This document shows positions 19,027-49,697 of a DNA stretch of 64,000 bases, piece by piece. The notes below the pieces were generated by a model. That model did no database searches and was not told the DNA's origin. It worked only from the letters and a program-made list of their open reading frames with translations. The position numbers and the translations under genes were made by a program. The stretch is from Polytrichum commune (Eukaryota > Streptophyta > Polytrichopsida > Polytrichales > Polytrichaceae): positions 41,726,001-41,790,000 of the forward strand of contig OX485806.1 of the NCBI GenBank assembly GCA_950295325.1, read 5' to 3'. Each line of letters begins with the position of its first letter. Position 1 is the stretch's first letter.

Positions 19027-19035
19027 GTTGGAGGC
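19027..19035. repeat. Left 9-bp TSD (GTTGGAGGC) of giant MULE M
   Basis: GTTGGAGGC at 19027-19035 is repeated exactly at 49689-49697. With one copy discounted, element B's pol frame aligns residue for residue with element A across the site. A 9-bp duplication is the hallmark of Mutator-like (MULE) transposition. Confidence 0.88.
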
Positions 19036-19095
19036 GGGACGACACTCCTATATGAGCGGTGAGCGGAGAGTGGAGAGCGGAGAGGAAGTAAAAAT
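19036..19095 (+). repeat. Left terminal inverted repeat of M
   Basis: It begins GGGACGACACTCCTATATGA, followed by GCGG-GAGCGG-type purine repeats to about 19088. Its partner is 49630-49688 on the opposite strand. The two align at nearly the same offset from the ends (GAGCGG at base 19 in the left repeat, base 18 in the right), but the outer 17 bases match poorly. Confidence 0.65.
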
Positions 19096-19577
19096 AACAA
19101 ACTTGTTAGAATAAATTTAATAATATTTTAAATAGAATCGAATATAGATAGAATATTCTAAATATTCTAAATATAGTAACAATGTATGACCTATTTCCGT
19201 GGAATGTATAGGTCCAAAAATAAATAAAAACGACCTGAATTTGAAATGGTCTCATAAAATTTGGAAACCGGGAAATACTAAAATGATATAAAAATTATGA
19301 TAAAATAGATAAGTATATGATTAAAACCAAAGGTGATCCCAAAAAAGGTTTAAATGAATATGATTTTATCGAGATTGGTATATTGAAGAATGAATCAATC
19401 AAAATACAAAGGGCGACCAACTTGCTTCGTTTTTATTCCATCACTTTTGTGTTTGTCCTATATGTGAGTCAACTCTAGAGCTTGGACTCCAACAATTTGT
19501 GGTCGAAGAAATTATCTTCAGCTGAATATATATGAGGTTATAAGTTAGATTAGTATCCAATACAGATGTAGAGACAT
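19096..19577 (+). other. AT-rich subterminal region of M
   Basis: No gene. It is AT-rich with repeated AATATTCTAAATAT words at about 19140-19175, followed by unremarkable sequence up to the first small ORF. It may hold the 5' flank of the 19578 ORF; no clear promoter motif is seen. Confidence 0.4.
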
Positions 19578-20099
19578 ATGCACACAATGGGAGAGGAGAG
19601 AGACATGTTCGTTGGCCTAGGATGGGAGAAGGAGATTAAAAGTCTAGGAGATCCGCATGTTCCATTTAATCCATCGCCGGAACATAACATAGGTGATGCA
19701 AATTGGTATAGTGATGACTACGAGCTGACTCCATTTTTGCAGTTCACACAAGCATGGAGGTGGAGGGTGCATGAGGAGCAGAAACAATAAACAAAAAATG
19801 AAAAGAGGCGAGCGGATGTGCTAGAGAAGGACGCCACAAGGTGCATAAATAGTGAGGCAGATGATACAACTGAGTTGAATGAAGAGAACTCGAACAACAG
19901 AGATAAGGAGGTCAAGGTGGTAGGCGAATCTTCGAGGCCTTTGTCGTTTCGCGAGAGAATGAAAGGATTATCGCCGCATCGTCGTCGTCATCGTCAAATG
20001 AGGGATAAAACGGTTTTGTACGTTGATTTGCTTCAACCGGGTCCACCTCCATCAAGAATGGACGATGAAACATCTAGGAGGTTGGCAACACGGAAGTAG
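19578..20099 (+). CDS. Unknown two-part ORF at left end of M
   Basis: Two open frames lie in succession. 19578-19790 encodes 70 residues containing D-A-N-W-Y-S-D-D-Y-E-L. 19818-20099 encodes a hydrophilic, charged stretch (acidic N-terminal half, then R-E-R-M-K-G-L-S-P-H-R-R-R-H-R-Q basic cluster) ending in ...R-R-L-A-T-R-K at a TAG. The first frame ends in TAA at 19788-19790, and the second may be the same protein after a frameshift or short intron. I do not recognise a family. Its place between the terminal repeat and the transposase suggests an M-encoded accessory protein or captured fragment. It could equally be non-coding. Confidence 0.35.
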
Positions 20100-21359
20100 A
20101 TTTAATAGACATAGTAGGCATGTTAAATTGAACATGTAGTGTTCAACCGGGAGAGAAACATATGGCACAATTGAGTATATTGTAATACTATATTTTGAGG
20201 GAATAAAAATAATCCATGAAATTATATTTATTATAACAAACAATTATGAGTTCATAAGAGGTCTAGAATTGGACACATCTATCAAAATACAATGTAGTGC
20301 TAGGATGAGAGGAGTTCTAGGAAGTAGATTGTTCAAGAGGCCCCCTTCGAGGATGAGTTTGACCTCATTGAAGCTAAATGTCGGGGCGTGAATGAACAAA
20401 TCAACTTCGGGGTCTACATTAGAGACCTTGACAAATATGAAGTAGAGGTGCTTATAATGTAGGAACGAATTTCGTTTCCGGCCAAACATTGATATCATAT
20501 CCTTGAAGGCCGGCCAATTACACTCGGGCAGGGAACTCACTGTGAGTTGGTAAATAGATTGTGTAGGTGTAGGTTTGGACTGCAACATGATCACACAACC
20601 AAATCCAGGGCGTGGAATCATGGTGACCTTCAATATGGTCCCGTCCATAGCTCGTGCAAATGCCACCATCTGCATTTGTTTTGTTGATGGTGCGGTGGCA
20701 AACCATCTCGTAGTCTTGCACTCCCTGGAAGAAGGATAAGAGTCTGGGTTGGCTGGAACGTCCACTCTGGAGAGGTCGAGGGGAGGAGCCGATGTGTTGA
20801 AGAGGCGAGTGGGCATGATGCGTTTTTTTAGGGAGCTGAAAACCGGCATTCTCCAGCTTCAAGATCTCCAGACGAGTGAGGTTGGTACCAAGCTTGACAG
20901 TCCAGAGGGGCAAATTGGAGGTCGCTCTTGGTCAGCAGAGAATTGTCGACCCACTTGCGACGCAAACTTTTGACACAACGCTCAATGTCGTCCGGGTAAA
21001 AAAAGAACTTCTCGACATTAGGTGTTGTGAATTTGTAATAGTTCCAAACTCCAAGGTATCCCGGAGCAGGGGTGCTCTTGGAGTTGGAGATAATTTTTGT
21101 TGTACATTTATTTTTGGTGACCCCATGCATGGCCCAACATGCCTTGGAGGCATTGTAAGGAACGCGAGAAATATGCCAGAGCTTCTTATCCACTTTGGAT
21201 TCTTGTACGGCAGTGACGCGGCAAAAATCAAGACCAGTAGGAGGGGGAGGTGGAATGTCTAGCACTAACGGAGAGGACTCCTCGACCATGGTAGGCAAAG
21301 GTGAAGCATGAGATCTTCTGGTTCTCTGAGCGACCCGAGGGCGAGAGAAGTTGACGGTG

Positions 21360-22838
21360 TGTGAGCCCAAAAGCATGTGCTCACATGTGTTTTAAGTTTG
21401 GAAATTATTAAGATTTGAGTTTGGATTTATGATTACCTTATAAAAACATAAAAATAGTGAGCTTTGATCATGGTTTGATGATCAGGCTTTAGGCTGGATA
21501 GTTAGTGTGTGGTAGTTGCATCACTGAAGGATTAGACTAAATGTTAAGTAGGATTTAGATTTGAAGTGTGAGTGTTATGTTGACTTGAAGGCTGGGGCTA
21601 AACTACAGAATTAGGTAGAGTTGTTGTCCGAATTAGGCAGGTTGGTTGTTCGTAAGAGGGTGGCTGGGACTGTACCCTAGCAATTCTCGGTTGGTGTGTT
21701 TGACAGCCGGGAGTCGGAAGAGAGCTCAGTGTGAAAAATGCGAATGTGGGTTGCGGCTGAGCCGAAGGGAAAAGCCCAAGCAGGGGCAACAAAAAATCGG
21801 CTGGGAGGCCAGAAATGGTTTTGCCCACAGCTACAAAGCAACATTGTCCAATACCAGGGCAAGGGGAGGAGCTACGTGATGGGCACAATTTCAGCCAAAG
21901 AGGAAAACAATTGCTTGGACAATGGCCACTTTCTGAGGCTGAAGGGATTGTGCAGGCGGCTGTCTATGGGTGTGAGAAAGAAAAAAATTGAGGACTTGCC
22001 GCGGGGAAGGGTAAAGATCAACTGAGCTAAATGAGGGGGTAATTCGTACATTCTGGCAATCTGCGAAGAGGGATTCAATGCAGAGTGTCATTCTGTGAGG
22101 AGACAGGTAGGTTGAGAAGGAATGAGGATTCGCGCCAAGTCGGGAATTGTTCGACCCAGAGGCGTTGCCGCTCTGCACAAAGGGGAATGCTGCTGGATTC
22201 CGATCCACACAGGCTATAGAAGCGGGAATGGGGACCATGAAGGAGGTGGCGCAGAGCACCTGTGCAATTGGGAGTCGAAGCTCAACTATTTCTGGGGCTT
22301 GAGTAATCTCTGGGCAGCCAATCTGCGGTGGCTGGGCCAGCCGGCTAACCGAACTTTGACAGTTGACGGGTGATGACGAGCTCATCATCCGCCCAACAGC
22401 GTAGAATTATGCTCAGCCACTTCACACTGAGGATCCGGTAATCAACACTAGGGTAGGGGATTAGCATTTAGAAAGTGGGAAATACTAGGTTACGGAAGAA
22501 TTAGTGGAATAAGCAAAGAAGGGCCATCAATTAGGTGGTAATGGTCACTTATTAGGTACTTAATAGTTAGTTAGAGAGTAGGGCTTGGATTTCAAGGAAC
22601 ATGGAACACTAAAGAGGGGAGTTGTGTGAATGGTTACAGTGAAAATTGACCATTGGGGGTTGGGTGTTTCTAAACACTTGACACTTGGGTGGTGGAATAA
22701 AGTTGTGAATTGATGAAATTGTTTTATTGGTAAGAAGGAACTTAATCCTAAGGGAGGGGAAATCACACTGAGCTAGATGTGGGCCTTGGACTCTCACCCG
22801 GACTACGAACGCATAAGGGTGGGAGTTTATGGCTGACA
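21360..22838 (+). mobile_element. Solo LTR (TGTGAGCC family) in M transposase gene
   Basis: It begins TGTGAGCCCAAAAGCATGTG and ends GGAGTTTATGGCTGACA (1479 bp). Flanks are CGGTG (21355-21359) and CGATG (22839-22843), a 5-bp TSD with one mismatch. Removing it reconnects one minus-strand frame of the transposase. Small ORFs on either strand inside it are not shared with the 13704 copy. Confidence 0.85.
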
Positions 22839-24851
22839 CGATGTCGGGGCGGTGGGTTTCATCATCAGCTCCAATGGGGATGTCGGGCTTGCGTTTCTAT
22901 GAGCCGAATACCTCGGCACCCTCGAGGTGGGGACTACGAGTACAGAATTCGTCTCCGCCAGGCATGTCGAGAAGAACCTTCTGTAGGACAGCGGGGTCAC
23001 CAGAACGTTGAGCACGACGTTGAGCACATTGAAGCATGAGTTTCTCTTTGCTAGGGCCATCGCCCCAACGCCACCCTTTAGAAACTAATGGTATGCCACA
23101 ACTTGGAGGCATGCTCGAATATAGTCATCCACAGTGGCCGCGTAAAGATCGCCACCCTTGTTGCCGGACGCTTGAAGCCATTTGTTGTGAATGGATTCGG
23201 CAAGGTTGCAATTGGGCATTTGTGCAAATTCCTCGACGGTCATGATTTTCTCCAGAGAAATGGAATGGCAGTGCAAGAAATAAGCAAAGCTTGAAAATGA
23301 AGATAAAACAAAAAACAAAGAGTAATAACATTAAAGACGTACCAATTCCATAAAGCCACCCCATTGTCAATATCGGAAGTGCCAGAAGGCCAGCCAAAGT
23401 TGAAGGTGTTTCAGTCCATCCTCGGAGGTGCAGTTAGACGAAGCCCACCGGGCCTTGATGGCGAGGTACCTTGTCTCCGCCTCAAGCATAGAGGATGCGT
23501 CGCGATACTGGAGGCAGAGACGCTTGTGTTGGTCTTGCAAGTCGTGTTTGATATAGAGTTTGGTGTGTTTCTACAAAGACTGGGTCCAATGGAAGTAGCA
23601 GGTTCTCTCGCGCCCATCGATGGGAACCTTTGGATCTCTGGACCCGTAGACAATCCTCACGGCATTCCAATTGGCTTGCGCACTGTCCGCCATGAATCCT
23701 TTGAAGTGAGGCTTGGGAATTCCATGCCTAGCCATGACGTGGTTGAGGTTGTGCCTGAAAAACACTTGAGCATCCTTGTCCTTAGATTGAAAGTCGTAGC
23801 AAACGATGGTCATGATGCGCTGGTAGGTTCCGTCGTATACATGGCAGGCCATGGTAGTCCACTTAGTGACGAGTTTGATATGCTCGAGATCCCCGCCAGG
23901 TTGCGTGCACCTAACCAAGTCGACCCCACTACCAGGGCCGACTTTGGACATCTTGAAAATAAAAACTTTGTCCGTCTCGTCACCTTGGCCCGGGAATTGA
24001 TTTCGCTGAACATAGGCCCAAGTGCTGACACCTCTAAGCTTCGCAATGCCATCTGTAACTCCTAACCTACGTAAGTATTTGAAGGTGGTAACTTTGTTTC
24101 GGAGGTGGGGGGAATTCAACTCCTTGCAACGATAAAAAATGGGTTGAAGTTCTTCCAACGAAAGAAATTGATGAAGATCACTATCATTGCAGAGGAGGAA
24201 CTCACCCACAAGGTCCTTGTTGGCTTCAAGAACAATTTTGCTATGAGTGGCTTTGGGTGTTCGCTCGACGTGCTCCTCGATTAGGGTGTCGATGCGCTTG
24301 CGGCTATCTCTGCAGTTGCCGACCTTGACTGGGTGGCGATGGTTGCCCAGATGAATGCACGCACACTGAGTGGTGTCATTGCCGTGGACGTAGAAGATTT
24401 TGGTGTGGCATGGTGCAATGCACGTGGGGGGCTCCTTACAGATCCTACACATAGCCCAAAGGGAAGGGACCACCAACGGGAAAGGGCTCCTTTGTGAAGC
24501 CGTCGAAATCAATATCATTGACCGGGGAGGTGCGATGAGCACGTTGGAGGTAATCGCAAAGAGGATTTTGGCATTGGAGATGGCCAACGCAACTGGAGGA
24601 GCGAAAAGCAAGGCCCATGTCATTGGTCATATTGGTGGTCTGGGTTTTGGTCCAAACATGGCCGTCATAGCGTTTGTCCATGCCGTCCATGGATTTGGCC
24701 TTCGTATGAGAGGACAAGACGCCTACTGGGGGGAGGACAAACATCCGATTCCCATCAAAACGAGGCGGCATGAAATTCACCTCTTCTATTTGTAAGGTGT
24801 CATAATCCAGCTTCTTGAGGATGTTTTTCCTACCGGGCATGGAGGCAAAAG

Positions 24852-25043
24852 TATTGGAGGATAGTGTTAGGTTGCATCGGCAACATTGTCCCATATGGGT
24901 TGTCAACGCTGGTCCTAACCCATACATATAAATAAAAGCATAAGAGGAGGAACTAATCACTCTCTCCATTGTATGCAAACATAGTGTATTGTGTTCCACC
25001 TTCCTACGTTGGTCTCTTTGCTTTCTTCTCTCATTTCCCAATA
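24852..25043 (+). repeat. 5' LTR of the copia element
   Basis: It starts TATTGGAGGATAGTGTTAGG and ends TTTCCCAATA (TATTGG/CCAATA inverted ends). A TATAAATA box lies at 24927-24934. It is 187/192 identical to 32182-32373. Confidence 0.85.
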
Positions 25044-25193
25044 GGTTATGGGCCCATTTTGTTTTGGAGGTAGGAGATCGACTTAGGAAGAGCTTGGAGA
25101 GGGCGGGATCTGATTGGAGGTGTTTTAGAGGTGTTCTAGGGCTTGTGGCGGAGTCTTGAAGCTTTTGAAGCGCCTTAGAGCATTCTTGGAGGA
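25044..25193 (+). other. Copia leader remnant
   Basis: No gene is seen. GGTTATGGGCCC directly after the LTR may be a primer-binding site, but I cannot match it confidently to a tRNA. The region ends at the GTGGA target site of the next insertion. Confidence 0.35.
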
Positions 25194-25198
25194 GTGGA

Positions 25199-26174
25199 TG
25201 TCGCAACCCTTGCTAAGCCCCCCTTGACCATCTTGCCAATTTTCAATTCTAGCAAAGGTTACGAGTCGCTAACCCTTCGCATACCGCCATGCTAATGGTT
25301 AGCTCCTCTAACCCCGGACCATTAGTTCATAGGAGGGGAACCAACCCTCCTACTTTGATTTCGGGACTCACCCCTTTAATCGGTAACCAAACCTTAGATG
25401 TGGACTTCCATCCATGGAAGTCCAATCCTATGTTGATCATCGCATTGCCGGAGCAACACTACAACAACCCGAAGCATACTAGGCAACTATGGCCTCACAA
25501 TGGGCCAAAGCCCATGGAGGCCGTGCCGTTCGGCCTCGGGTGGGTGAGGCCACACCACCTCACCCATATAAGCCTCTAGGACTTCACGCGGGGCCCCTAC
25601 CCCACCGTCAACCAACCTCTTGTCTCTCTACCAAGAGTTGGGGCCAAGTGGACATTTTCCTTTAGCTGCTGGGCCTAGAACCCCCTAGCAGCTTCAGACC
25701 ATCATAACTTCCTTGTATGATGTCTGATCATAACAACCAACCACTCCATCTTCATCTACGCTTCACGTAGATGCCGATGGACTCCTCACTTGCCCCATTC
25801 GGACAAGTATTGAGGACGTTATGCCTGTTTGAACCTTGGCAGTCCCGAGAATCACTCCCAGGCACTGCTGTACCAGGGCGCTGTCCCGGGACAGCGCCCC
25901 ACTCAAATGGCCATAACTCCTAGCTCACACCTCCAATTGAGGTGTTCTTGAGCTTTCTAGAATCACCACGCCATGAGCTACGCATAGCTCATGGCCTTAC
26001 CCTTGTGCCTCCTAGTCTTCGTGGGTGGGAGGCGTTCCCAACGCCCGGGGCCCTCACCCACACTAGGATCACTTGGGCCCTCTCACCAACGGCGCCACAA
26101 GTCCCGGGTGTCACTCCGGGGTCCCCCTTGTGCCCATGGTGTTTCGGGCACTCCTCATGGAGAGGTGCGCGACA
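25199..26174 (+). mobile_element. Solo LTR, TGTCGC family, copy 1 (in copia element)
   Basis: It begins TGTCGCAACCCTTGCTAAGC and ends GAGAGGTGCGCGACA (976 bp). A perfect TSD GTGGA flanks it (25194-25198 and 26175-26179). A perfect 24-bp palindrome at 25876-25899 (GGGCGCTG...CAGCGCCC) lies about 275 bp from its right end. It is highly similar to 51261-52233 and, inverted, to 36117-37090. There are no coding genes; overlapping short ORFs are shared only as nucleotide repeats. Confidence 0.92.
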
Positions 26175-26279
26175 GTGGACCAGCGTGAGGGACCTTAGAG
26201 GAATGTTTCTACATTCTAGATCTCTTAAGGTATATGTCCACACCATTTCAAATGCTTAAGTGTACATCAGATCCGTATT

Positions 26280-29200
26280 TGAGTTGTTGAAGGCCATTCG
26301 AGTGCCAAAGGGCTTAGATTAGCTTTTTGATGTGTTTTGGAGTTTTGTGCATCTAACCGGATCATTTAGGTGCTGACTTGAGTGATTAGTTCATTTCTAC
26401 ACTAGATTGAGGGCATTCAAGTGCCAAAGGGCTTAGATTAGCTCTTTGATGTGTTTTGGAGATATTTTGCATCTAATTTGATAGGAAAGGTGTTGACTTG
26501 AATGTTTGGTTCATTTCTACACTAGATTGAGGACATTCAAGTGCCAAAAAGCTTAGATTAGCTCTTTGATGTGTTTTGGAGATATTGTGCATCTAACTTG
26601 AGAGGAAAGGTGTTGACTTGAATGTTTGGTTCATTTCTACACTAGATTGAGGACATTCAAGTGCCAAAGGGCTTAGATTAGCTCTTTGATGTGTTTTGGA
26701 GTTTTGTGCATCTGTTAAGTGCAAAACTTAGCATTAAAGCAAACATACAAGCAGATAATGGAACTTAGAAAGCCAAATTGAAAGGCACTAGAAAGAGACA
26801 GAATCGGATCCAAAAAGGAGAATGGAACTGAAGAAGGAGAGCTGTAGGAGAATGGAGCAGGTTGCGGGAAGATTGGGAGCTGGCCGAAGAAGACGACGGC
26901 TTGGCATTAGGGCTCGGTCACGGAGATAGGACCCACGGCCTCAGGGGCCTCTACTCACGGGTTTAGACCCTGTCATGGAAACACAAGGCTTACGTGCGGC
27001 TATAAGACCTTTTTACATGATATTGGGACTACCAGGGATTAGTAAGAGGAATTTAGGAAATTTAAGGCCGAGCTAGAGACATTATGAAATAATTAGGATT
27101 GGGATTTGAAAACATTTTGAAGAAGCATTAATGAAGTATGTTAGGATATAGGATGTTGAGGTTTTAAAGACCATTAAAAAGGCATGATGGCCGAATATAG
27201 GAATATAGAATTTTGGAAATATTATGAAGTAGAATAAAGGAATGATGTAAGAATGATTTCTATACATTATGAAGATCTTATGGAACTTCATAATATGAGA
27301 TCAAAGCATGATGTAAGCATTGTCTAAATATTATAAAAGGACACGATATGTAGCTACGACAAAGATAGAGTGGCATTCCCATAATAGGAACATATAAGAG
27401 CTTCGACGGTTATATCCATTTTTTGATAGATACGATCCACGGATGTCATAGATGAGTAGTTATCTAGGATAGGAAAGATTGGGACTCCGCGGATATAGAT
27501 TTTGAATCAAGTAAGAAAAACTACATAAGGGAAGCATTTTAGGAGACCTATACCTCATTTTCTATACAACGAAGTTATCTTAAATTTGAATGTCAAAAAC
27601 ACTTGAAGCTTTTTGTATCTCTCCTCTCGGAGCATTTTTGCAATACATTATCTTTTCTACAAATGCGTGTGATCTTTCTACCTCTCTCTCAAATTGAACT
27701 ATGAGTCGTCAATGGTACTTTGTAGCTTATGTGATTGAGCAACCGAGAGTAGAATAGATTGAGTAGACTCTTTTGAAAAAAAACTCAAAAGATAGTATGA
27801 GGGTGAGAACAAAGCACTCAAGACAAATTGGAGAATCAATGGAACTTTGAGAAGGATTGAATTTAGAAAGCGATTGTCAAACTTGAGTGAAGGAAACAAG
27901 ATTATCTCTCAAAGCGGAACTTATCATTGATCTCCTCAAAAGGGAATTATAAATATACATGTGATTGAATGATTGAAGAATTATATGCATGTTATGATTT
28001 AAGCAAAACAACTTAACGAATGCAACTCCTTCAAAAGAGGAGGAGCTTATTATTGAAAACTACATAATTGACTTATAAGTATTATACATATTATACTACA
28101 TATGGATTGTTGAACTTATGATTAACAAGAATGATGAAGACATTAATTCATATCAAAGTTTGAATACATATGAATGAAGTAATATTACTTACTACAATTG
28201 TTATTGAAGCTTCTTACTTTAAGATTCTTTGTGTGTTGTTGGATGTCATTACATTTTGAAGGATTATCTATTCAAGAGAAGATCTCTCTCTCTTGAGCAA
28301 AACTCAAGAGAGATAGATTTATCTTCTCGTCATCAAGAAACACTTTGTAGTAAAAGTATTTTTTCTCTTAAGATACTTTGTGAGTTGTTGGATGTCATTA
28401 ACAATAAAAAAGGAGATCTTCCTCTTGAATAAACCTCAAGAGAGTTATAATTATTCTTGTCATTAAAACACTTTGAATGTTAAACGTGACATTGCAAAAC
28501 AATCAATGATGTGTTCATGAAATTATAACTACTATATGCATACATGTCAAGTTACAATATTATAAGTAGTAACACTTGAGTTTTAAAAAGATGACTCAAG
28601 AATATTAGATCTTCTTCATCATTATAAGATTATTATCATTTGTGTGATTAATGTTTATGAACTACTAACATTAAGGATTCATACAATTTATTGAATACTA
28701 TATTATTATCAAGGATATTGTTACACCTCTTGAAGCTTTCTTTAAATCTAATGATTTTTATTATCAATGATGCCTTACATTGAGAGTAAGAATTAAGATA
28801 ATGAGATTGTGTTCACTCCAATAATTATATTCATATCATAAGAAGAAGAGAGGGATTATTAATTCGATACCGAACATATTAATGAGGCACGGTAGTTCTC
28901 AAGCGAATATAAATTTACGTGATGTCTCACCGTGAGTCTTCTTGAGCTAAATTGCAAGGGAACGACCCACGGGGTGCATCAGCATCTAACCGGAACATTT
29001 AGGTGCTGATTTGAGTTATTAGTTCATCTCTACACTAGATTGAGGACATTCAAGTGCCAAAGGGCTTAGATAAGTTTTTTGATGTGTTTTGGAGTTTTGT
29101 GCATCTAACCGAATCATTTAGGTGCTGACTTGAGTTATTAGTTCATCTCTACACTAGATTGAGGACATTGAAGTGCCAAAGGGCTTAGATAAGTTTTTTG

Positions 29201-29500
29201 ATGTGTTTTGGAGTTTTGTGCATATAACCGAATCATTTAGGTGCTGACTTGAGTGATTGGTTCATTTCTACACTAGATTGAGGGCATTCAAGTGCCAAAG
29301 GGCTTAGATTAGCTCTTTGATGTGTTTTGGAGATATTTTGCATCTAACTTGAGAGGATAAGTGTTGACTTGAATGTTTGGTTCATTTCTACACTAGATTG
29401 AGGACATTCAAGTGCCAAAGGGCTTAGATTAGCTCTTTGATGTGTTTTGGAGATATTGTGCATCTAACTTGAGAGGAAAGGTGTTGACTTGAATGTTTGG
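26280..29500 (+). repeat. 119-120-bp tandem array, split by element 26713-28981
   Basis: Units of 119-120 bp contain GTGCCAAAGGGCTTAGATTA, TTTGATGTGTTTTGGAG and GCATCTAAC. They recur with starts near 26302, 26421, 26541 and 26661, then 29054, 29173, 29292 and 29412. The 2.27-kb element at 26713 interrupts the array at a GCATC. The array ends just before the protease/integrase region of the copia element and stands where gag would be expected. No long frame crosses it. Confidence 0.85.
26713..28981 (+). mobile_element. L2 element: 2.27-kb LTR-like insertion in the 120-bp array
   Basis: It starts TGTTAAGTGCAAAACTTAGC, ends CCACGGGGTGCATCA, and is flanked by a perfect TSD GCATC (26708-26712 and 28982-28986). 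TG...CA ends and 5-bp duplication fit a solo LTR or an LTR-type non-autonomous element. It is AT-rich. A truncated inverted copy lies at 8650-10177. A 66-codon minus-strand frame at 27699-27899 resembles the 8870-9181 frame, but I treat both as repeat sequence. Confidence 0.82.
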
Positions 29501-29518
29501 TCGAGTGATGATTTTGCA

Positions 29519-32110: not shown

Positions 32111-32181
32111 GCGAGAGATAGACATAAGATGTTAAGTGAAATAATGGGGTTGGAGTACAATGCCACCTCACAAAGTGAGAG

Positions 32182-32373
32182 TATTGGAGGATAGTGTTAG
32201 GTTGCATCGGCGACATTGTCCCATATGGGTTGTCAACGCTGGTCCTAACCCATACATATAAATAAAGGCATAAGGGGAGGAACTAATCACTCTCTCCATT
32301 GTATACAAACATAGTGTATTGTGTTCCACCTTCCTACGCTGGTCTCTTTGCTTTCTTCTCTCATTTCCCAATA
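32182..32373 (+). repeat. 3' LTR of the copia element
   Basis: 192 bp with TATTGG/CCAATA ends and a TATAAATA at 32257-32264. It lies 71 bp after the end of the RNase H frame and differs from the 5' LTR at 5 positions. Confidence 0.88.
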
Positions 32374-35335: not shown

Positions 35336-35360
35336 TCAATTTGTGCAGGAATCACAAGCT

Positions 35361-38300: not shown

Positions 38301-40539
38301 AACGCATTGCTTACCGGTAAATTTCTCAGTTGTCATTTCGTACATATTTTTTTTGTTTCTTTTATTTTCCACCACCGTTTTCTTATTCCATGTTCATCAT
38401 TTTCCAGGTACATTCATCATGAGCTCCTTGTGAAGAATGCTTTGCCTCCTTCGTGCTTGCCCACTTTCCTCTTAGATTGGGTCGTTGTCAACTCCAATCT
38501 TTGTGTCTATACGGCCATGCAAGTTGCAAAGTTTCCACACGTGCACTTGGAGGCTGGTGGTTCGTACTTGGATTGCTCTCGTGGATTCGTGCCCGAGGTG
38601 GAAGCAATGCTTTACAACACCCTTCTAAGCTCTGCCCCTGAGGTGATTGAATTAGAAGAAAAGCCGGAATAGGATAATCCCCCTCCTCTATCCAATGACA
38701 ACGATGTTGCGTCGGTCAAAGGTAAGGGCAAAGGTAGGAAGGTTGTCCCCCATGCCTCTTCTCAAGTATCTACTCGTTCTTTCAAGAAGGCCTCCGTTCA
38801 TCGCATTGTTGTTCCAGCCACCACCATGGTTGGAAATCCAACCGCCACTCCTTCTACCCCTGCCCCCAATCTTGTTGCCGCTCCTTCCCATAGCAGCGCA
38901 ACCATCCCATCGGTGCCTCGCAAGAGGAAGGCTGTTGCACCTGATACATCGGCGACTTCCTCGGAGAGGTCATCTAGTCTTTCATTGATTGAGAATGTGG
39001 ACATGAGAGAGTTCACTGAGGATCTCATGAAGACGAAGGTTCCCCCTACCGCCTACCGCCGCATACAATAATTCCTTACCAAAGTTTGTATGTCGTTCAC
39101 TTGTTTTATCCAATCTTTCAATGCAATTCCACATTTGATTTTTGATTTTGTTTTTTTTTTGGGATTTTGGTTTTTCAAGTTGAAGCGGGCCGTACTCGTC
39201 CAAACAACAAGCCTAAGGTTCACACATGCATTGATTTATTCTTTGCAGATGTGCCCGAGAACCTACGTTTGCCGAGCATCTTGGTCTCATCCTCGGATGT
39301 TCCTCAGTGGAACAAACGTTCTTTCACATACTTTAAGGTTTTATTTGCCTTTGCAAATGCCAACCTCCATGACAATGGCGTCCTCGTCTTTGCACACGCC
39401 ATTGATCCTGAGGTCTCTAGATCAATTCACAACTGGGCACACACTGAGGAATTTTATGTTGCCGAAGACTGGTTTGGCATGAATGACCTCGATCTCCAAT
39501 CGCCTACTAATATTCCTGAATTGGTAATTCCTTTTCGACTTCATCCATTTCCATTCTTACCTTCTTTCTTTCATTTATACATTCTTAATTCTACCGTTCA
39601 AATTTTGTGCAGACTCGCAAGTTCTTCATCAAGGTGCTTGTGCGTAATGAGTCCGTTTTGAATGTCCTAAACCTCGGACTTCAAGAACATGGGTTCCAGT
39701 CTCAAAAGAGATGGTTGGCTCAACAGCTTCACCGATGTGAAGAACCAATCGGGAACGACGGAGTGCCTTGGAGAGGTGCTTGTGAAAAACGCCCCGAGTT
39801 TTTCTCCATCATTTTCTCCGCTCTCACGGACAAGGACGACATTATCTTGGATTGGCAATGTGGCGTTGGTTCTTTCTTCACCTTTTTGTTTTTCATGTTT
39901 TTTGTTTTTCATGTTTTTTTATTTTTGATGTTTTAATTTCTTTTATATTTGGTTCATCTCCAATTCATTTCCTTATGCTCACCTATTCGCATTTTGTTGT
40001 TCTAGAAAATTCTATCATTGCATGCCGCTTCATTCAACGCCATATTGTTGCCCTTGAATCAGACATTGATGTCTTCAAGTCCATCCTCCTTCCCATTCGC
40101 GAGCCTGAGTAAAAACACACCTCTCAACACGCCGCCCCTCAATGAGACTCGGTTTTTTCTCCGCCTCCCTGGAAGTTGGCGAAGCGCAATTTCGATTTGC
40201 TGTGTGCGTAAGTTTGTTCTTGGATTCTACTTCGTTTGCATTTGTATTTTCTTGTATTGGAGTTTTGGACATGTGCTCATGTTTTCTTCTTTATTTTTCT
40301 GTATGTACAGAGTTCAAAATGAGAGCCCCATCCGCGTCCTTAATGCAGACATGTTTGCAATGTCTTCGACGACGTTCGAGCTCCCATTCTATGCTGTTGA
40401 GCTTGCCCATCTTTTGGCGGAAGCACCGTCCCCACCTCCTAGTCGCACCCGCCCTTTCGACAAACTAGTATTGGATTTCCTAGACATAGAGACCAAGCAG
40501 GGCGAGAATAGTGATAGACATGGTAGTCCAAATTCTTGA
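35361..40539 (+). pseudogene. ParB-like domain fused to beta-class DNA amino-methyltransferase, 11 exons
   Basis: Predicted exons: 35361-35465, 35569-36116 joined to 37096-37125 across a solo LTR, 37215-37410, 37490-37687, 37779-37997, 38078-38316, 38408-39087, 39180-39523, 39613-39868, 40006-40207 and 40311-40539. All introns except the one at 39869 have plausible GT-AG ends, and phases agree. The N-terminal part (about residues 55-190) resembles a ParB/Srx-type domain: F-S-I-P-L-C-R-L near its start, then M-Y-E-E-N-H-R-L-T-S-W, matching the ParB G-x-H-R-x-x-A box. The C-terminal third fits a beta-class DNA methyltransferase: D-L-F-F-A-D-V-P-E-N for motif IV (usually DPPY), then E-K-R-P-E-F-F and I-L-D-W-Q-C-G-V for the SAM-binding motif I, then H-I-V-A-L-E-S-D. 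In-frame stops at 38670, 39069, 40110 and 40143 plus the LTR make this copy inactive. An alternative is a plant-specific family with only fold-level resemblance. Confidence 0.6.
36117..37090 (-). mobile_element. Solo LTR, TGTCGC family, copy 2 (in methyltransferase exon 2)
   Basis: Inverted copy (974 bp). On plus it starts TGTCGCGCACCTCTCCATGA and ends AGCAAGGGTTGCGACA. It is flanked by a perfect TSD GCCGT (36112-36116 and 37091-37095). Removing it keeps exon 2 in frame. The internal palindrome present in copies 1 and 3 has one mismatch here (GACAACGCC). Confidence 0.92.
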
Positions 40540-41164: not shown

Positions 41165-42974
41165 CTCTCCGCCACAATTCAAGAAGGTTGGATGTTGGTG
41201 GTTCACCCCCTTACACCAAATTTTGAATTTTTTTTTTTGGTTTATCATGTGGGTAGGCTAAGGGTCTCGGTTCCGAGAGGCTAGAGGATTCGGCTCCTTA
41301 TACCAAATTTTGAATTTTTTTTTGGTTGATCATGTGGGTAGGCTAAAGGTCTCGGTTCCAAGAGGCTGGAGGATTCGGCCCCTTAAACCACATTTTGAAG
41401 TTTTTTTTGGAGGCTAGATAATTCGGCCCCTTACACCAAATTTTGAAGTTTTTTTGGGTTGATCATGTGGGTAGGCTAAGGGTCTCGGTTTTGAGAGGCT
41501 AGAGGATTCGGCCCCTTACACCACATTTTGAAGTTTTTTTTGGTTCATCATGTGGGTAGGCTTAGGGTCTCGGTTCCGAGAGGCTAGAGGATTCGGCCAC
41601 TAACACCAGATTTTGAAATTCTTTTTGGTTGATCATGTGGGTAGGCTAAGGGTCTCGGTTCCGAGAGGCTAGGGGATTCGGCCACGTACACCTGATATTG
41701 AAGTTCTTTTTGGTTGATCATGTGGGTAGGCTAAGGGCCTCGGTTCCGAGAGGCTTGTGGATTCAACCCCTTACACCAGATTTTGAAGTTTTTTTTGGTT
41801 GATAATGTGTGTAGGCTATGCCTGTCGGTTCCGAGAGGCTAGAGGATTTGGCCCCTTAAACCACATTTTCAAGTTTTTTTTGGTTGATCATGTGAGTAGG
41901 CTAAGGGTCTCGGTTTCGAGAGGCTAAAGGATTCGGCTCTCGAGACCAGATTTTGAAGTTTTTTTTGGAGGCTAGAGGCTGCGGCCCCTTACACCAGATT
42001 TTGAAGTTCTTTTTGGTTGATCATGTGTGTAGGCTAAGGGTCTCGGTTCCAAGAGGCTTGTGGATTCAGCCCCTTACACCAGATTTTGAAGTTTTTTTGG
42101 GTTGATAATGTGTGTAGGCTATGCCTCTCGGTTCTGAGAGGCTAGAGGATTCGGCCCCTTACACCACATTTTGAAGTTTTTTTGGAGGCTAGATGATTCG
42201 GCCCCTTACACCACATTTTGAAGTTTTTCTTGGCTGATCATGTGGGTAGGCTAAGGGTCTCGGTTCCGAGAGGCTAGAGGATTCGGCCACTTACACTTGA
42301 TTTTGAAGTTGTTTTTGGTTGATCATGAGTGTAGGCTAAGGGTCTCGGTTCCGAGAGGCTAGAGGATTCGGCCTCTTTTACCAGATTTTGATGATTGTTT
42401 TTTGGTTGAGATTGTGTTTAGGCTAAGGGTCTCGGTTCCGAGAGGCTTGTAGATTTGGCCCCTTACACCAGATTTTGAAGTTTTTTTAGTTGATCATGTG
42501 TGTAGGCTAAGGGTCGTCGTTCCAATAGGCTAGAGGATTCGGCCACTTATACTAGATTTTGAAGTTCTTTTTGGTTGATGATGTGGGTAGGCTAAGGGAC
42601 TAGGTTCCGAAAGGCTTGTGGATTCGGCCCCTAACACCAGATTTTGAAAAAAAAATTGGTTGATAATGTGTGTAGGCTATGCGTCTCGGTTCCGAGAGGC
42701 TAGAGGATTCGGCCACGTACACGAGATTTTGGAGTTTTCTTGGTTCATCATGTGGGTAGGCTAAGGGTCTCGGTTCCGAGAGGCTAGAGGATTTGGCCAC
42801 TTACACCAGATTTTGAAGTTCTTTTTGGTTGATCATGTGTGTAGGCTAAGGGTCCTCGTTCCGATAGGCTAGAGAATTCGGCCACGTACACTAGATTTTG
42901 AAGTTCTTTTTGGTTCATCATGTGGGTAGGCTAAGGCTCTCGGTTCCGAGAGGCTTGTGGATTCGGCCCCTTAC
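41165..42974 (+). repeat. 85-bp satellite array, right of methyltransferase gene (part 1)
   Basis: This is the same unit as 33481-35335 (GTGGGTAGGCTAAGGGTCTC, GGTTCCGAGAGGCTAGAGGA), with a period of 85 bp (GGCTAA at 41256 and 41341). Several units are shortened to about 55 bp (near 41405, 41955 and 42180), having lost the palindromic core. The array is cut at CTTAC (42970-42974) by element 42975-47003 and continues at 47009. Confidence 0.9.
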
Positions 42975-43571
42975 TGTGGGAGCCCAAAAATCCACGGAAG
43001 TCTGGATTGGCTTCCTAACCGGATTAATATCCGGATAATACCCTGATGTTGGTCTCAAATTAGGGTTTTCTAGGGTAGGATAGTTGTTTTATGGAATAAG
43101 GTTCTCAACATCCGCCTGACGCGTTAAAATGGTAAGAACGGACACTTTGGCCAGACCGGAACTTAATCCAGGGAGACCGTTTTTAAACGGTCCAGTCCAA
43201 AACGGTCCGGTCCAGGGCGTCCGGATTGGAAGGCGGTTATACCAGAAGGCAATTATACCGGAAGACGGTTATACCGAAACCTGGACGGTTGTAACAGAAA
43301 CGGTTGAGGACCCAAGCCCGTTAGAAGAAGAAGGAGAGAGTACTTAAAGGAATTTCTCTTCCTTTCCAAGCCATTTGCGCGAGCGGCATTGTCGAGAGAA
43401 CGAGTGGTGAGCTGTTTTTCGAGTCGCCAACAGTTAGATTGCTGGGATTCCTTAGTAATTGGCAGATAGAACTCCGGAGGGAAGAAGCCGGGGATTGTTA
43501 GAGGATTGAGGGTGCGAAGCAAAATGCCGGAGGCGTGAGAGGAAGATGAGAGAGAGCAGGTTCTGATTCCC

Positions 43572-45622
43572 GTGAAACCGGTGTCGCCAGCCACCCCGAA
43601 GAGAGATTCCGAGCTCAAGGAGCTCATAGAGGACCTAAGTCGGATGGGGTGCGAGGGATTACTCGCCAAGCCCTGGAATCTCCGGGCGGAGGCCACATTG
43701 CAGGAATTCTTGTTTGAGAGAGGCAATCAATGGATTCGGACGATGAGGCAGGAGCCGGAAAAATGGATGCCGGAGGTATGGGCGAGAGTCTACGGATTTT
43801 CGAAAGGAAAGGGTGAGGGCTGGGCTGGCCGCAGGGATAGTTTCTACGTAGGGAAGTTCAGAACGGACCCGGATCCTAAGGACGGATTCCATCCCGGGAA
43901 TTGCCGAACCCTAGAGAGAGGAGAGTTATAGAATTTATTCTCCCCATCCTTAGTCCGGAAAAGCCCAAGCGACTCAGCATTACCAAGGCCAACACCCTGT
44001 TTGGGGCCATGTCCAAAGCCCGGCCTGTAAATTGGGGTAGATTAATTCAGGAGTATGTGGAGAAATCCATCCCCTACATTAGCCGGAAACCCTCTTTTCT
44101 TTCCCTTTACATCCTCCACCTCTACCAACACCATGGCTGCATCAACGAAGAAGAGGAGGACATGCTGACGATAGCGGAAGATGAGGTGGTGTACAAGATC
44201 AGTCCGGAAGCCAAAGTTCCGGAGACCGGAACAGAGGATTCCAACGACACAGCGATTCTGGAACCATCTCCAGTTTCGTCCCCTCTGAAGGTCTGGAAAA
44301 CCGCCTCACCACCGGCCCGGCAGGAAGCTGGACCCTGCCGGGACGTTCCCTAGAAGGATATTGACCTCTCAACGTTCAAGTTTCCGGAAGCCCCCTTTAA
44401 GCGCGTCCGGGATGAGTTGACGGAGCTCCAGAACCAGTACTTCCGGATGGAGCACATCACCCGGGGAGTGAACATGGCCCTAGGTAATTGTGGACCCGGA
44501 AATATCCTCCGGGAGTTGGCTAAGCGGACAGACCGGAAACAGGTGGAGGCCCTGGAGACGGAAAAGGCACAGCTGGCGGCACAAGTGGCCGCTATGACCT
44601 GGGAGCTCGCCCAAAAGAGCGAGGAGATCCGGAAGTACCAGGCAGAACAAACCGTGGTGTTGAGCTGAGTCCGGGAGTTGGTGGGCCATCCGGGAGATAT
44701 TGTCAACAAGGCACACCTCTACGACCAGCTGATGGAGTCGGCGGATCCGTCTTCCGCCCGACAAACACTCCCGATTCTGGTAAAGTACTCCCGCTCACTG
44801 AAGGATTTACTCAAGGAGATTCAAAAGCTGCTGCCGGGTGGTACCCCCAGGCGGATGCTCTATCCAGGTCCACCCGGATCTCCGACGGGTACTTTATACG
44901 AGGTTATTGGAGAGGTGGAACTGGTTCCGGCCTCACTGGCGGGTGCGGGGCCTAGTCAGCCCGCCGGAACTTCCCAGCCACCCGAATCCGGAAGAGTTCC
45001 ATTTCGTAAGAAGACCCCTGTTCCGGAACGGGTCCGGTCATCCTTAGTTCGCCAGAAGAATACGGAACGGTCAGCCAGGTCCGGAAGGGGACAATCACCG
45101 AATCCGGGTCAGGGAAGGGCGTCAGGGCGGTCCCGAACGCCGGAGGGGACCAGAACTCCGGAAAGGATGAGGACGCCAGATGGGATGAAGACTCCGGATA
45201 GGGGTAAAGCACCGGTATCGCATGTTTCGCCTGTTCCTGCTCTTGACTGCATGATAGTGGAGCCGTGGGCTCCTCCACCCTCACACACGATGTCCGCAAG
45301 GGATCCCCGGACGACTTCCGTGTCCTGTGGCCGGAACAGGGAAGGGACCACCGAGAGTGACCCCTCGCCTGGCCAGAAGTCCCGAAAGGAGAAACACGTT
45401 TCCAATACGGCGCGATCCGGATCGGGAGACGGATCGGGAGAGGATCCGGCAGCAGCACACGATTCTGAAGAAGAGGTCGTCCCCTCCCCGAACATGAGGA
45501 GGGTATTTACAAGGCTGCAGGAGCGACGATTTTTGACCCCCAGTGGAGGCTCTTCCACCGTCATCGGACCCGCAAGTCACTCCAAGGACGGGACGACTCC
45601 GAAGAAGCACCGCACTACTTAG
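43572..45622 (+). pseudogene. Gag-like protein of the 4-kb element (broken)
   Basis: The first frame, 43572-43931, carries F-L-F-E-R-G-N-Q-W-I and V-W-A-R-V-Y-G-F. After a frameshift at about 43905-43925 a single frame runs 43901-45622, broken only by TAG 44351-44353 and TGA 44666-44668. Its first part (I-T-K-A-N-T-L-F-G, L-S-L-Y-I-L-H-L-Y-Q-H-H-G) resembles the 'plant transposon protein' type domain of gag-like ORFs, which is a weak assignment. Around 44520-44660 is a heptad-like coiled coil (V-E-A-L-E-T-E-K-A-Q-L-A-A-Q-V). The last 230 residues are disordered and rich in P, S, R and T, with R-T-P-E / K-T-P-D repeats, as in nucleic-acid-binding Gag tails. Expected role: particle formation and packaging with enzymes supplied by another element. 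Confidence 0.5.
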
Positions 45623-46980
45623 TTTAGGCTTAGGAAGGTTAACATTAGGAAGATCAAGATTAGGCTGGTAGAATTAAGGATAACCCTTTTTGAGTTTTTG
45701 GCAAAACTGTAAATTCAAATTTTGTCAGCGTGAAAAGTGGATCGAGATCCGGAAATTCCGCGTAGGATGCGTTTCCGGATTTCTCGGCGCTTGGGGTTTT
45801 CTGGGCGGCCGCCTGGGCCGCCACCAGTAGTTAGGGATTGCAAGCCTCTACTTAAGGCTGAATAAGGAGCTTGAAAAGGGTTATCTTCTCTGATGTTGTA
45901 TTTTGTTGCTCCCTACTCAATAAAACTCTAAGTTTTCCATCTATGCTGACTTGTTTTGTGCACGGACTGTTAGGAGAATGTGGTGGATCTAGAGGGAATG
46001 GATGAGTAGGAAGTACGGATAGGACAAAGAAGAAGAAGCCCGGGTCCTATCCGACTATAGTACTATGGCTCCTTTCTGAGTGTAGTGGGAGGGAAACCTT
46101 GTTATTCCGAATGTCTGAGTAACGCCTATGTGAAATAACCGTCGTTAGGACTGGGTAAGATCCGGGAGGTGCCGGACTTACGCCATCCGACCTTTTGAAG
46201 AGGTCTCACGGATCCTAGGCGGGGCAATCTGGAAAGCGGTACGCATCGCCCAGTTATCCCATATTTAGTTGAGCCTAAGTTCGCCATAGCCGGATTGATC
46301 TGTCGGAAGGAGGAGAGAAACCGGAAAGGTTAGGTTTCCGGTCCGGAGAGCATTTCCGACGTGTAGTGGGAGGGAAACCTCATTATTCCGGATGCCTGGG
46401 TAAAGTCCATGTGAGATAGCCGTCGTTAGGACTGGGTAAGATCCGGGAGGTGCCGGACTTACGCCATCCGATCTTCTGAAGAGGTCTCACAGTCTTTGGG
46501 CGGGGTAATCCGGAAAGTGGTATGGATCGCCCAGTTATCCCGGATTAACAGGTCTCGGATCCAAACTAAACCTTTCTGTCGTTGTAGTTCCGGGAACCAT
46601 CCGGATTCTCTGTGTGACCTGCCAGGAAATATTAGGCCGATCCGGACTGGTTGTGAGAGAAATCCGGATTTTGCCCATGTAGGGACGTCTTCACCGGATG
46701 AATTCCAATCACCAATGGAGGTAGGAAGTAGGTAGGTAGGTATTGAGGAAAAATGCATGTAGGAGTAAGACTTAATTATAGAGGTTCATTCCGGAAGGCA
46801 AGTCCTGGAATAAGGACTTCCAAAGGACTATCCGGATCCGGAAAGCAAATCCGGCCGGTGGTCGACTTTCAAGCAGGAAAAGTGCGTCCCTGACATCTTG
46901 CACTTCACAGAATCCCTGGACGATACTTGGACCATCCGGACAGACCGGATAAGGCATTGAAAAACGCCTATCCGGAAACT
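45623..46980 (+). other. Non-coding 3' region of the 4-kb element with a 277-bp duplication
   Basis: No gene. A polyadenylation-like AATAAA at 45919-45924 follows a T-rich stretch. 46084-46262 and 46361-46540 are direct copies about 277 bp apart (GTAGTGGGAGGGAAACCT, GTCGTTAGGACTGGGTAAGA, GGAGGTGCCGGACTTACGCC). CCGGA words continue to the end. Confidence 0.65.
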
Positions 46981-47008
46981 TTTGGTGTTCGTGTGCTCCC
47001 ACTCTTAC

Positions 47009-47835
47009 ACCAAATTTTGAAAAAAAAATTTGGTTGATAATGTGTGTAGGCTATGCCTCTCGGTTCCGAGAGGCTAGAGGATTCGGCCCCTTACACCACA
47101 TTTTGAAGTTTTTTTTGGAGGCTAGAGGATTCAGCCACATACACGAGATTTTGAAGTTCTTTTTGGTTGATCATGAGTGTAAGATAAGGGTCCTCGTTCC
47201 GATAGGCTAGAGGATTCCGCCACGTACACTAGATTTTGAAGTTTTTTTTGGTTCATCATGTGGGTAGGCTAAGGCTCTCGGTTCCAAGAGGCTTGTGATG
47301 CGGCCTCTTACACCAGATTTTGAAGTTCTTTTTGGTTCATCATGTGGGTAGGCTAAGGGTCCCGGTTTCGATAGGCTAGAGTATTTGGCCACTTACACCA
47401 GATTTTCAAGTTCTTTTTGGTTGATCATGTGGGTTGGCTAAGGGTCTCGATTCCGAGAGCCTTGTGGATTCGGCCCCTTACACCAGATTTTGAAGTTTTT
47501 TTTGGTTGATCATGTGGGTAGGCTAAGGGTCGCGGTTCCGTTAGGCTAGAGGATTCGGCCCCTTAAACCATATTTTGAAGTTTTTTTTGGTTGATCATGT
47601 GGGTAGGCCAAGGGTCTCGGTTCCGACAGGCTAGAGGATTCGGCCCCTTACAGCAGATTTTCAAGTTGTTTTGTGGTTGAGATTGTGTGTAGGCAAAGCC
47701 TTTTGGTTCCGATAGGCTAGAGGCTTCGTCCCCTCACCAGATTTTGGTGTTTTTTTTTGTTGATCATGTGTGTAATCTAAGGGTCTTGGTTCCGATAGGC
47801 TAGAGGATTTGGCCCATCACACCAAATTTTGAAGT
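47009..47835 (+). repeat. 85-bp satellite array, right (part 2)
   Basis: Continuation of 41165-42974 after the 4-kb insertion. Units are more diverged here (GGTTCCGATAGGCTAGAGG variants), and only one exact TCTCGGTTCCGAGA remains (about 47056). Confidence 0.88.
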
Positions 47836-48190
47836 TTATGTTCAGCTCTTGGTCACATTTCAGAATGCTTCAATGTTTGAGTGAAGGTTTAGCTCTCAGC
47901 CACATTTCAAAAATCATGAATGTTTGAGTTAAGGTTTAGCTCTCGGCCTATTATCAAAAATCTTGAATGTTTGAGTTAAGGTTTGCCTCTCGGCCACATT
48001 TCAGAAATCATGAATGTTTGAGTTAAGGTTTACCTCTCGGCCACATTTCAAAATGCTTGAATGTTTGACTTAACGTTTAGCTCTCGGCCGAATATCAAAA
48101 ATCTTGATTGTTTGACTTAAGGTTTATCTCTCGGCCACATTTCAGAAATTTTGAATGTTTGAGTTAAGGTTCAGCTCTCGGTCACATTTC
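47836..48190 (+). repeat. 47-bp tandem array
   Basis: Seven or eight units of about 47 bp (GTTTGAGTTAAGGTTTAGCT, CTCGGCCACATTTCA). CTCTCGGCC recurs at 47940, 47987, 48033, 48080, 48127 and about 48174. Single copies of this unit also occur at the outer edge of the left 85-bp array (33435-33490). Confidence 0.88.
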
Positions 48191-48253
48191 ATAAAGGTTG
48201 GATTCATATGATGAATGTGTCTCATTTTGTAACTCATTGAGGTTTGCGCATCA

Positions 48254-48785
48254 GGTTGGGGAAGATCGCGCCAATCCCACGTGATGGAGCCACTTGCATT
48301 GTATTTGGACATAGATGTACAATTGAGAGTTTTTGTTCCAAATTTGTTGGTGGGTGCCGCAAAGGGTGGATATGAATGCAGAGACGGCATTGGACACCCA
48401 ACTCCGTTTGTTGCTAATCCACAGTTTGAGGTTATCTTGCAAAGCATGGAAAACGATTGTGGATAAAAGTGCGGAGTACAATGCTCTTCGTTTGGCTCAA
48501 TATGAATACGCCATGTGTCACAATGATGTCATAAGGGTGTGTTTGCCATGCGAACATAACTTCATCACCCAATTTCAACAGAACTTGATGTGGTTCTCAC
48601 ATAGCCGGCACGTCAGCTCACGAATTTCGCGGAGGATTCTTATGTCGGACTTGGGGGATTTGTCATTGCGGAAATTGGCTAAGCTAAGGGATGAATTGGA
48701 GATGTCATTCTGTGCGGTGGAGTTCTATGGCATGAGATTTTATCCAGGTGCACCGTATTGGATATGCCCGGCCGATAGGGTGTAG
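48254..48785 (+). CDS. Unknown ORF near the right end of M (weakly F-box-like)
   Basis: A likely exon begins after GCGCATCAG at 48246-48254. The longest frame, 48333-48785 (150 codons), contains L-L-L-I-H-S-L-R-L-S-C-K-A-W-K-T-I-V-D, reminiscent of an F-box core, then N-A-L-R-L-A-Q-Y-E-Y-A and a tail rich in aromatic residues ending ...Y-W-I-C-P-A-D-R-V. An overlapping frame at 48281-48466 may hold the true N-terminus, requiring a frameshift. The F-box idea is weak and I do not assign a function. Its place between the arrays and the right terminal repeat suggests M cargo. Confidence 0.35.
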
Positions 48786-49629
48786 ACACGTGGGGGAGCC
48801 AAATGGATTTTTTTGTTTTTTTTTGTTTTTGTTTTTGGAGTAAACTGTTTATAGCAAATTAAACTGGATACACATTTTTGAAAGTCTTGATTTTGGCACC
48901 TAACTTCACCTACATTATCTCGGTCAATCAAATATTTTGTGTATGGGAATTATGGACATTGAAGAGTACTTGGAAAGAGTACCGTAGCTACTTGGGGCAA
49001 TGTATCACACTCTGAAAATCTTTTAAGTACACTTAAGTATATTTAAGGGTTCCTTCACACACGAGTGAAGAACCGTGACCTCCCAAAGGTGGATTTTCAA
49101 AATAGTCCAAGTTCGCATCCCATTACGCTTGATGGACCGACAGAGTAAGTGACTGCAAGATGGATGTAAAGTCTAAATGAATTTATATAGGGTATTAGAT
49201 GATCATGTTTCATGGTCACTTGGACGTTTTTTAAAAAACATTTGTTAGAAGTAAGTTTAACACAAAACCAGGAGACCTACTCATATATATAATGGCCATA
49301 TAGATCCTGGAGGGTATGTTCACTAATACACCTATTAATTTGATGTACCTTTTGCAAATCCCATTCAACTCTTTTTTCATCATATGTTGATGTTTGATTT
49401 CAATTGCTGACGTCAGCCCTAATTTAAAATGAAACCATTTGAAACCTAGACTATAAAATCTTTGATAACAAATACATTCTTCCACGCCTTTAGGTTCTGT
49501 TTGTTCCTCGAACTAGGTTGGGTTAATATCTCCACGGGATTGCAGTGCCTTTCCAATAAATTGAATTCAAACTATCTATAAATTCCATGGAAATAGGCAC
49601 TGCTTGTCCTATTTTTACCCAACAAAGTC
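48786..49629 (+). other. Right subterminal region of M
   Basis: No gene seen. It contains a T-rich tract (48812-48835) and ordinary AT-rich sequence leading to the terminal repeat. Only a short degenerate ORF (49231-49485, minus) is present, and part of it (TTTGCAAATCCCATTCAACTC) resembles 40618-40645 downstream of the methyltransferase gene. That hints at a shared, duplicated 3' flank. Confidence 0.4.
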
Positions 49630-49688
49630 AAAATTTTCCACTTTCCAATTTCCGCTTTCCGCTCTCCGCTCACACTACTAAGTTTCCT
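49630..49688 (-). repeat. Right terminal inverted repeat of M
   Basis: On plus it reads ...TTTCCGCTCTCCGCTCACAC TACTAAGTTTCCT. Its complement has GAGCGGAGAGCGGAAAGCGG about 17 bases from the end, matching the left end. It is followed directly by GTTGGAGGC. Confidence 0.65.
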
Positions 49689-49697
49689 GTTGGAGGC
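49689..49697. repeat. Right 9-bp TSD (GTTGGAGGC) of M
   Basis: Exact duplicate of 19027-19035. Element B's pol frame resumes with A-N-E-I-K-E-Y-S-D-L. Confidence 0.88.

Follow-up and report, generated by a model that had tools for sequence, protein, structure and literature searches.

The window analysed here is a 64,000-nucleotide stretch of the moss Polytrichum commune (contig OX485806.1, C4 in our numbering, positions 41726001–41790000). It contains a very large DNA transposon at positions 19037–49688 (30,652 bp), which interrupts the pol reading frame of a retrotransposon, gypsy B. The element carries a minus-strand gene for a transposase resembling those of Mutator-like elements (MULEs) and a divergently transcribed plus-strand gene for a protein derived from DNA methyltransferases. 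The analysis established a mobile unit with multi-copy ends, a gene pair that is conserved and whose second member is under purifying selection, and tandem arrays that diverge around one palindrome. We propose, with a probability of roughly 45%, that this is a giant MULE-like transposon whose methyltransferase-derived protein acts sequence-specifically on the element's own repeats, in the manner of Arabidopsis VANC proteins.

The preliminary description of this DNA placed the insertion between perfect 9-bp repeats, and GTTGGAGGC is present at both 19027–19035 and 49689–49697. The repeat alone is weak evidence because the window has three further copies of the 9-mer, two on the plus strand and one on the minus strand. 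Decisive support comes from the gypsy frame and the recurrent ends. The gypsy B frame reads into both duplication copies, and the translated flanks join as one frame (RQMKMGSTLEA followed by LEANEIKEYSDL) that aligns with gypsy A (RQMRMGAQLSDGEMGTYKEL), which bears out the insertion of a very large DNA transposon at this site. The window's own genome (408 Mb, 64 contigs) was searched with the terminal 300 bp of each end; all counts of genome places are lower bounds covering the top-scored candidates. The left end gave 40 scored places from 360 first-look candidates and the right end 40 from 276, the window's own included in both (the 43 right-end rows include 3 that add a second piece to a place already counted). 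Of the 40 left matches, 31 show similarity from base 1 or 2 onward; of the 40 right matches, 31 remain similar up to base 299 or 300, and three more do so via a second piece. Most matches run to the terminal bases rather than ending well inside them, and other copies with the same ends and their own flanks, several with duplications of their own, were found. These data confirm the observation of a mobile element.

The copies compared were E1–E6, recognised as left and right pairs of 14–47 kb including insertions, and E7, recognised by its left end only. The right ends of E1–E6 are 91–95% identical to that of the window copy, irrespective of the types defined below. Nested inside E6 are b (21.1 kb) and c (10.75 kb), two relatives whose ends are similar and each of which is flanked by a 10-bp duplication. 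Duplications were scored over 10 bp with the family ends taken as GGACGAC...GTTTCC plus one base. At least 8 of 10 positions match in six of the eight complete-ended copies: 9/10 in the window copy, 10/10 in E4, E5 and nested b, and 8/10 in E6 and nested c. Randomly paired flank 10-mers reach this score at a frequency of 0.0011 (0.11%). E2 scores 6/10 at the fixed place and its flanks are alike once shifted across a C run; no target duplication was found for E1 under the same model. E3 and E7 were excluded from the count because the right end is truncated or lies outside the fetched sequence. A length of 10 bp rather than 9 is the best reading of the target duplication and sets the element start at 19037. 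The flanking duplication first described is upheld, and its length is revised to the value that fits the copies better. In family a, to which the window copy belongs, the inverted similarity of the ends consists of GGA and subterminal repeats of the GTGAGCGG type alone; a longer inverted repeat, around GGGACGAAGCTATTTTGC, is present in nested b. The features of the element itself are as follows.

19027–19036, no strand: target duplication, left copy (GTTGGAGGC plus G), 9/10 against the right copy
19037–19120, plus strand: left terminus GGACGACACTCC, with GAGCGG-rich subterminal repeats
23088–24690, minus strand: transposase gene, main part (t2, t3), with zinc/GCM-like domain and RNase-H core; frames broken; exon with the catalytic E at 23088–23261
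32619–32951, minus strand: N-terminal exon of the transposase (t1), beyond a copia-type element
33493–35149, no strand: 85-bp tandem array between the divergent genes, with TCGGTTCCGA
35638–36111, plus strand: methyltransferase-derived gene, first conserved exon (p1)
37216–39068, plus strand: methyltransferase-derived gene, middle exons p2–p7
39179–40109, plus strand: methyltransferase-like domain, with m1 at 39179–39523 (motif IV, DVPENL), m2 at 39613–39870 (motif I, DWQCGVG) and m3 at 40008–40109
41207–42974, no strand: second 85-bp tandem array (related unit), downstream of the methyltransferase-derived gene
47028–47837, no strand: remainder of the second tandem array
49600–49688, plus strand: right terminus ...CCGCTCACACTACTAAGTTTCC(T)
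49689–49698, no strand: target duplication, right copy (GTTGGAGGCT)

The second gene comprises ten exon pieces (p1–p7 and m1–m3; 35638–40109, plus strand) that are found again, completely or partially, in E1, E2, E3, E4 and E6; the gene was not detected in E5 in the comparison of fetched copies. It is paired with the transposase in the window copy (W), E1, E2, E3, E4 and E6, and partly in nested b and c. Substitutions in the gene are three-periodic, and the frame shifts at introns. The copies were grouped as type I (W and E1) and type II (E2, E3, E4 and E6). Between types, the synonymous divergence (dS) of the second gene is 0.73–0.91 and the ratio of nonsynonymous to synonymous divergence (omega) is 0.14–0.21, showing purifying selection. 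Within types omega is 0.48–0.73, as expected of decay after insertion. Protein searches gave 130 homologues with the m1 exon open reading frame (ORF) and 364 with the spliced profile (120 listed each). Among the matches listed, the sole second-gene homologue with an organism named in its source is P0280, Ceratodon purpureus M758_UG251900, whose tag we take to denote the U sex chromosome.

The second protein descends from DNA methyltransferases of class beta (N6/N4). A profile (A4) built from six spliced methyltransferase-like sequences was compared with the PDB, and all seven matches at E ≤ 10 are DNA methyltransferases: DpnA (9.6e-6 and 1e-5), CcrM (0.031), N4-cytosine methyltransferase (0.45 and 0.48), MboIIA (0.67) and Mod (1.2). 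The alignments lie mainly over the motif I region, with motif IV of CcrM weakly aligned in addition. A 33-row exon profile (A2) had no PDB match; only the spliced and more diverse A4 succeeded. Pfam N6_N4_Mtase (PF01555) recognised one of the six A4 members, the nested b copy (6.5e-7, 30 bits against a cut-off of 26.7, motif I region). The other five members had no Pfam match, and neither did single family-a exons. A hand composite sequence reached 0.091 with PF01555 and 0.0065 with NCBIfam CcrM; the E4 sequence gave nothing in the Pfam and NCBIfam scans made alongside it. The motif order is IV then I, as in CcrM, DpnA and M.MboII, and motif I is kept as D-x-x-x-G-x-G (DWQCGVG and variants). 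The canonical motif IV, [DNS]PP[YFW], was found in 0 of 161 fetched homologues, a loose denominator in which many are single-exon pieces. A loose pattern parsed the motif IV place in 90 of the 161, as exact D[V/I]PE in 66 and as near variants without an aromatic fourth residue in 24. D[V/I]PE mostly stands in place of DPPY, and the long N-terminal regions, the introns and the location on a transposon are further differences from class-beta enzymes. An AlphaFold model of the methyltransferase-exon homologue P0128 (mean predicted local distance difference test score 53.9, perhaps with an unspliced intron read through) was set aside. A ParB-like N-terminal domain, prompted by a GNHRLxAW likeness, was not supported, with no ParB match in PDB or Pfam.

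Related gene pairs occur in divergent lineages. The transposases of b and c show 49–65% identity over t2/t3 and 38–40% over t1, and their second-gene parts 25–57% by exon. Exons p1, p2, p4, p6, m1, m2 and m3 were detected in b. A genome search with the m1 exon gave 150 scored places from 983 candidates. They include a second class of 46 matches at 59–66% identity, one of which is E3's own exon; 44 of the 46 have no internal stop. Nine matches on C1–C5 have equal scores, which points to a younger family, d. L058, a 10-kb piece of d, holds all ten exons at 49–69% identity and no stops; d is probably a full element. Approximately 4 kb of tandem arrays (L058 1–4842) with 28 copies of GGCCTCGGATCCGAGGCC lie upstream of this stop-free gene. 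The preliminary description had spoken of cargo genes. An extra gene is indeed present; it is a conserved, methyltransferase-derived gene common to divergent lineages and not a casual capture.

In a, b and c the two genes are separated by a tandem array, and a has further arrays downstream of the second gene. Array units are unlike one another. The arrays of type I (aI, window) and type II (aII, E4) that were compared have no common 14-mer, and those of b and c share zero or one 12-mer with aI/aII. The palindrome TCGGnnCCGA is present in four of the five array types, with 11 sites in the first aI array, 6 in aII, 3 in b (one per unit), 30 in d and 0 in c, against shuffle means of at most 0.025. 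No other of the 256 cores of this palindromic form occurs two or more times in more than one array set. All 25 sites of the palindrome in the 64-kb window lie in the element. In units picked by the palindrome, its columns show higher conservation than the remainder of the unit in seven of eight array sets (one tie).

The transposase core appears to tell a different history from the second gene. Over t2/t3 (107–134 codons), dS between W and E2/E3/E4/E6 is 0.08–0.15; W differs from its cargo sister E1 by 0.175, and E1 from E2/E3/E4/E6 by 0.13–0.26. Set against the cargo dS of 0.73–0.91, this low divergence and the similar ends indicate that cargo and arrays appear to have one history and the transposase core and ends another. 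The pattern fits exchange of a cargo-plus-array module. Such a shared history would link the arrays with the second protein and not with the transposase.

The transposase was classed as MULE-type in the preliminary description, and this is partly supported. MULEs have a 9–11-bp duplication, an RNase-H core followed by a helical region, a D-D-CxxH-E order and a GCM-like zinc domain. The present family resembles MULE/IS256-type elements in each of these. The D / D / CxxH / E order was assigned by eye in homologues and genomic copies (MFDHVKR, FMADSAQANW, ERTCxFHW and CNLAESIHNKW); the window transposase lacks the AWIMFDH stretch holding the first Asp. The predicted structure has a GCM-like domain, and its MULE likeness by fold comparison is borderline; no MULE structure was among the matches listed, which excludes nothing. 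The family differs in its duplication of 10 bp, in its size (14–47 kb for family-a copies, including insertions) and in the absence of any Pfam transposase match among 40 scanned members and three spliced fragments. By sequence, the transposase profile matched Dad4 at E 0.35 only, and the window ORF gave nothing. The MULE assignment draws on the borderline fold comparison and the by-eye motif layout, and not on recognition by a Pfam transposase model.

The methyltransferase-like gene and the shared palindrome suggest a self-encoded system to escape or mark silencing. The transposase would mobilise the element via its ends. The second protein would bind TCGGnnCCGA in its own arrays through the methyltransferase-derived fold, and the bound protein would block or remove host silencing so that the element stays expressed. 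Fast change of array units around a fixed core would separate the families from one another and from host small RNAs. A fuller version is more tentative and falls well short of an even chance. It holds that these elements form a clade, probably within mosses, in which a methyltransferase without canonical catalysis became a reader of its own CpG-containing palindromes, that this anti-silencing arose independently of VANC, and that cargo and cognate arrays are exchanged as a module between lineages.

VANDALs are Mutator-like elements. The VANC proteins of Arabidopsis bind to short motifs within noncoding tandem repeats that diverge rapidly, and they remove silencing marks (PMC10398659, PMC5735166). 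The elements described there have a second protein beside the transposase, and their noncoding tandem repeats contain a short motif and vary from one related element to another; the present family is alike in both respects. It differs in that its second protein is class-beta methyltransferase-derived, its repeats have a common palindromic core, and no Pfam match to DUF1985 (VANC) was found among the cargo pieces scanned. We propose that the family works like VANDAL/VANC and is not a member of it. In bdelloid rotifers, N4CMT is reported together with N4-methylcytosine (4mC) as an epigenetic mark (PMC8885841). The present gene would likewise bring bacterial-type DNA amino-methylation into a eukaryote, known here from sequence, and unlike N4CMT it is part of a transposon. 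No moss MULE with a methyltransferase was recognised in the literature (titles and abstract openings, with subscription journals mostly outside the scope).

Four other explanations were weighed. An assembly artefact in which both junctions are chance joins gains a little from the further 9-mers in the window; with both ends found at numerous loci, several of which have duplications of their own, and the gypsy frame continuous across the junctions, its probability is close to nil. MULEs often capture host sequence, and the second gene could be a host gene that was captured and does nothing for the element. This is highly improbable: lineages a, b, c and d all have a related gene (25–69% identity by exon), selection between types is purifying, and the genome has at least 150 scored m1 places. 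The main enzymatic rival is an active amino-methyltransferase marking its own palindromes with N6-methyladenine or 4mC, like the modification enzyme of a restriction system carried on a transposon. The class-beta profile relatives (DpnA, CcrM and N4-cytosine methyltransferase among them), the retained motif I, the low omega between types and a palindromic site that suits such an enzyme all speak for it. The replacement of motif IV in most parsed homologues, with no canonical form among those fetched, makes it doubtful.

The arrays and palindrome may instead serve the transposase or transcription, as promoter or enhancer repeats, with the methyltransferase-like protein acting elsewhere, for example in element replication or repair. 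The position of the arrays between two divergent genes and the GCM-like domain in the transposase model are consistent with this. Types I and II have close transposases (W to type II over t2/t3) and unlike arrays that co-vary with the cargo, and we consider the idea unlikely, if somewhat less so than active methylation. Sequence-specific action of the second protein on its own repeats is the reading we prefer, and several points weigh against it. The transposase's own DNA-binding domain could be the palindrome reader, and the t1 exon beside the arrays has no clear type split (dS 0.19–0.24 for W to E2/E3/E4 and 0.185 for W to E1). The c array has ATGCCGTTGACGGCAT in place of TCGGnnCCGA, and the comparison detected no more of the second gene in c than p1, p2, p4 and m1. 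Family d is known from a single 10-kb piece that includes neither transposase nor ends. Anchoring the unit-conservation test on the palindrome biases it in the palindrome's favour, and the methyltransferase matches are confined mainly to the motif I region.

If the preferred reading is true, sequence-specific anti-silencing encoded by transposons themselves evolved at least twice and is not an Arabidopsis peculiarity, arising here from a DNA-modifying enzyme. It would also account for the kilobases of satellite-like DNA in such large elements. Module exchange between copies would be a natural experiment on the co-change of repeats and the DNA-binding protein that reads them, and haploid plants are well suited as hosts for testing it.

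Later insertions in the window copy were told apart by collinear alignment with other copies.

24850–32373, plus strand: copia-type retrotransposon in the transposase gene; long terminal repeats (LTRs) 24850–25043 and 32180–32373, 97.4% identical
36118–37090, minus strand: solo LTR TGTCGCAACCC...GCGCGACA, inverted, in the methyltransferase-derived gene, with a 5-bp duplication
42975–47002, no strand: insertion of ~4 kb with TGTGGGAG...CTCCCAC ends, a 5-bp duplication (CTTAC) and gag-like ORFs named by eye

No second LTR was noticed in the 42975–47002 insertion. Later insertions sum to ~14 kb and leave ~16.6 kb of own sequence, in agreement with the earlier estimate. Positions 21361–22837 (~1.5 kb) are also missing in relatives and a clear duplication was not seen; this difference may be a deletion in the relatives. 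The window copy looks like a dead, decayed relic because the copia element splits the transposase gene, the frames are broken, and the first catalytic Asp stretch is missing.

Solo LTRs of the TGTCGCAACCC...GCGCGACA family (~975 bp) lie at 25199–26174 (within the copia element), 36118–37090 and 51261–52233, and further copies lie inside E6 and E7. E6 (C4:41929962–41977141, 47 kb) consists of same-clade elements nested in one another, with solo-LTR insertions in turn, and E7 includes pieces of two divergent transposases. The C4 region at 41.4–59.1 Mb, in which the window lies, is 4.3% of the genome and holds 57 of the 104 first-class m1 places and 32 of the 40 right ends, its 41.4 Mb boundary having been chosen by eye after the places were seen. 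This region may be non-recombining or heterochromatic. It holds just 6 of the 46 family-d-like m1 places, and the concentration is that of family a.

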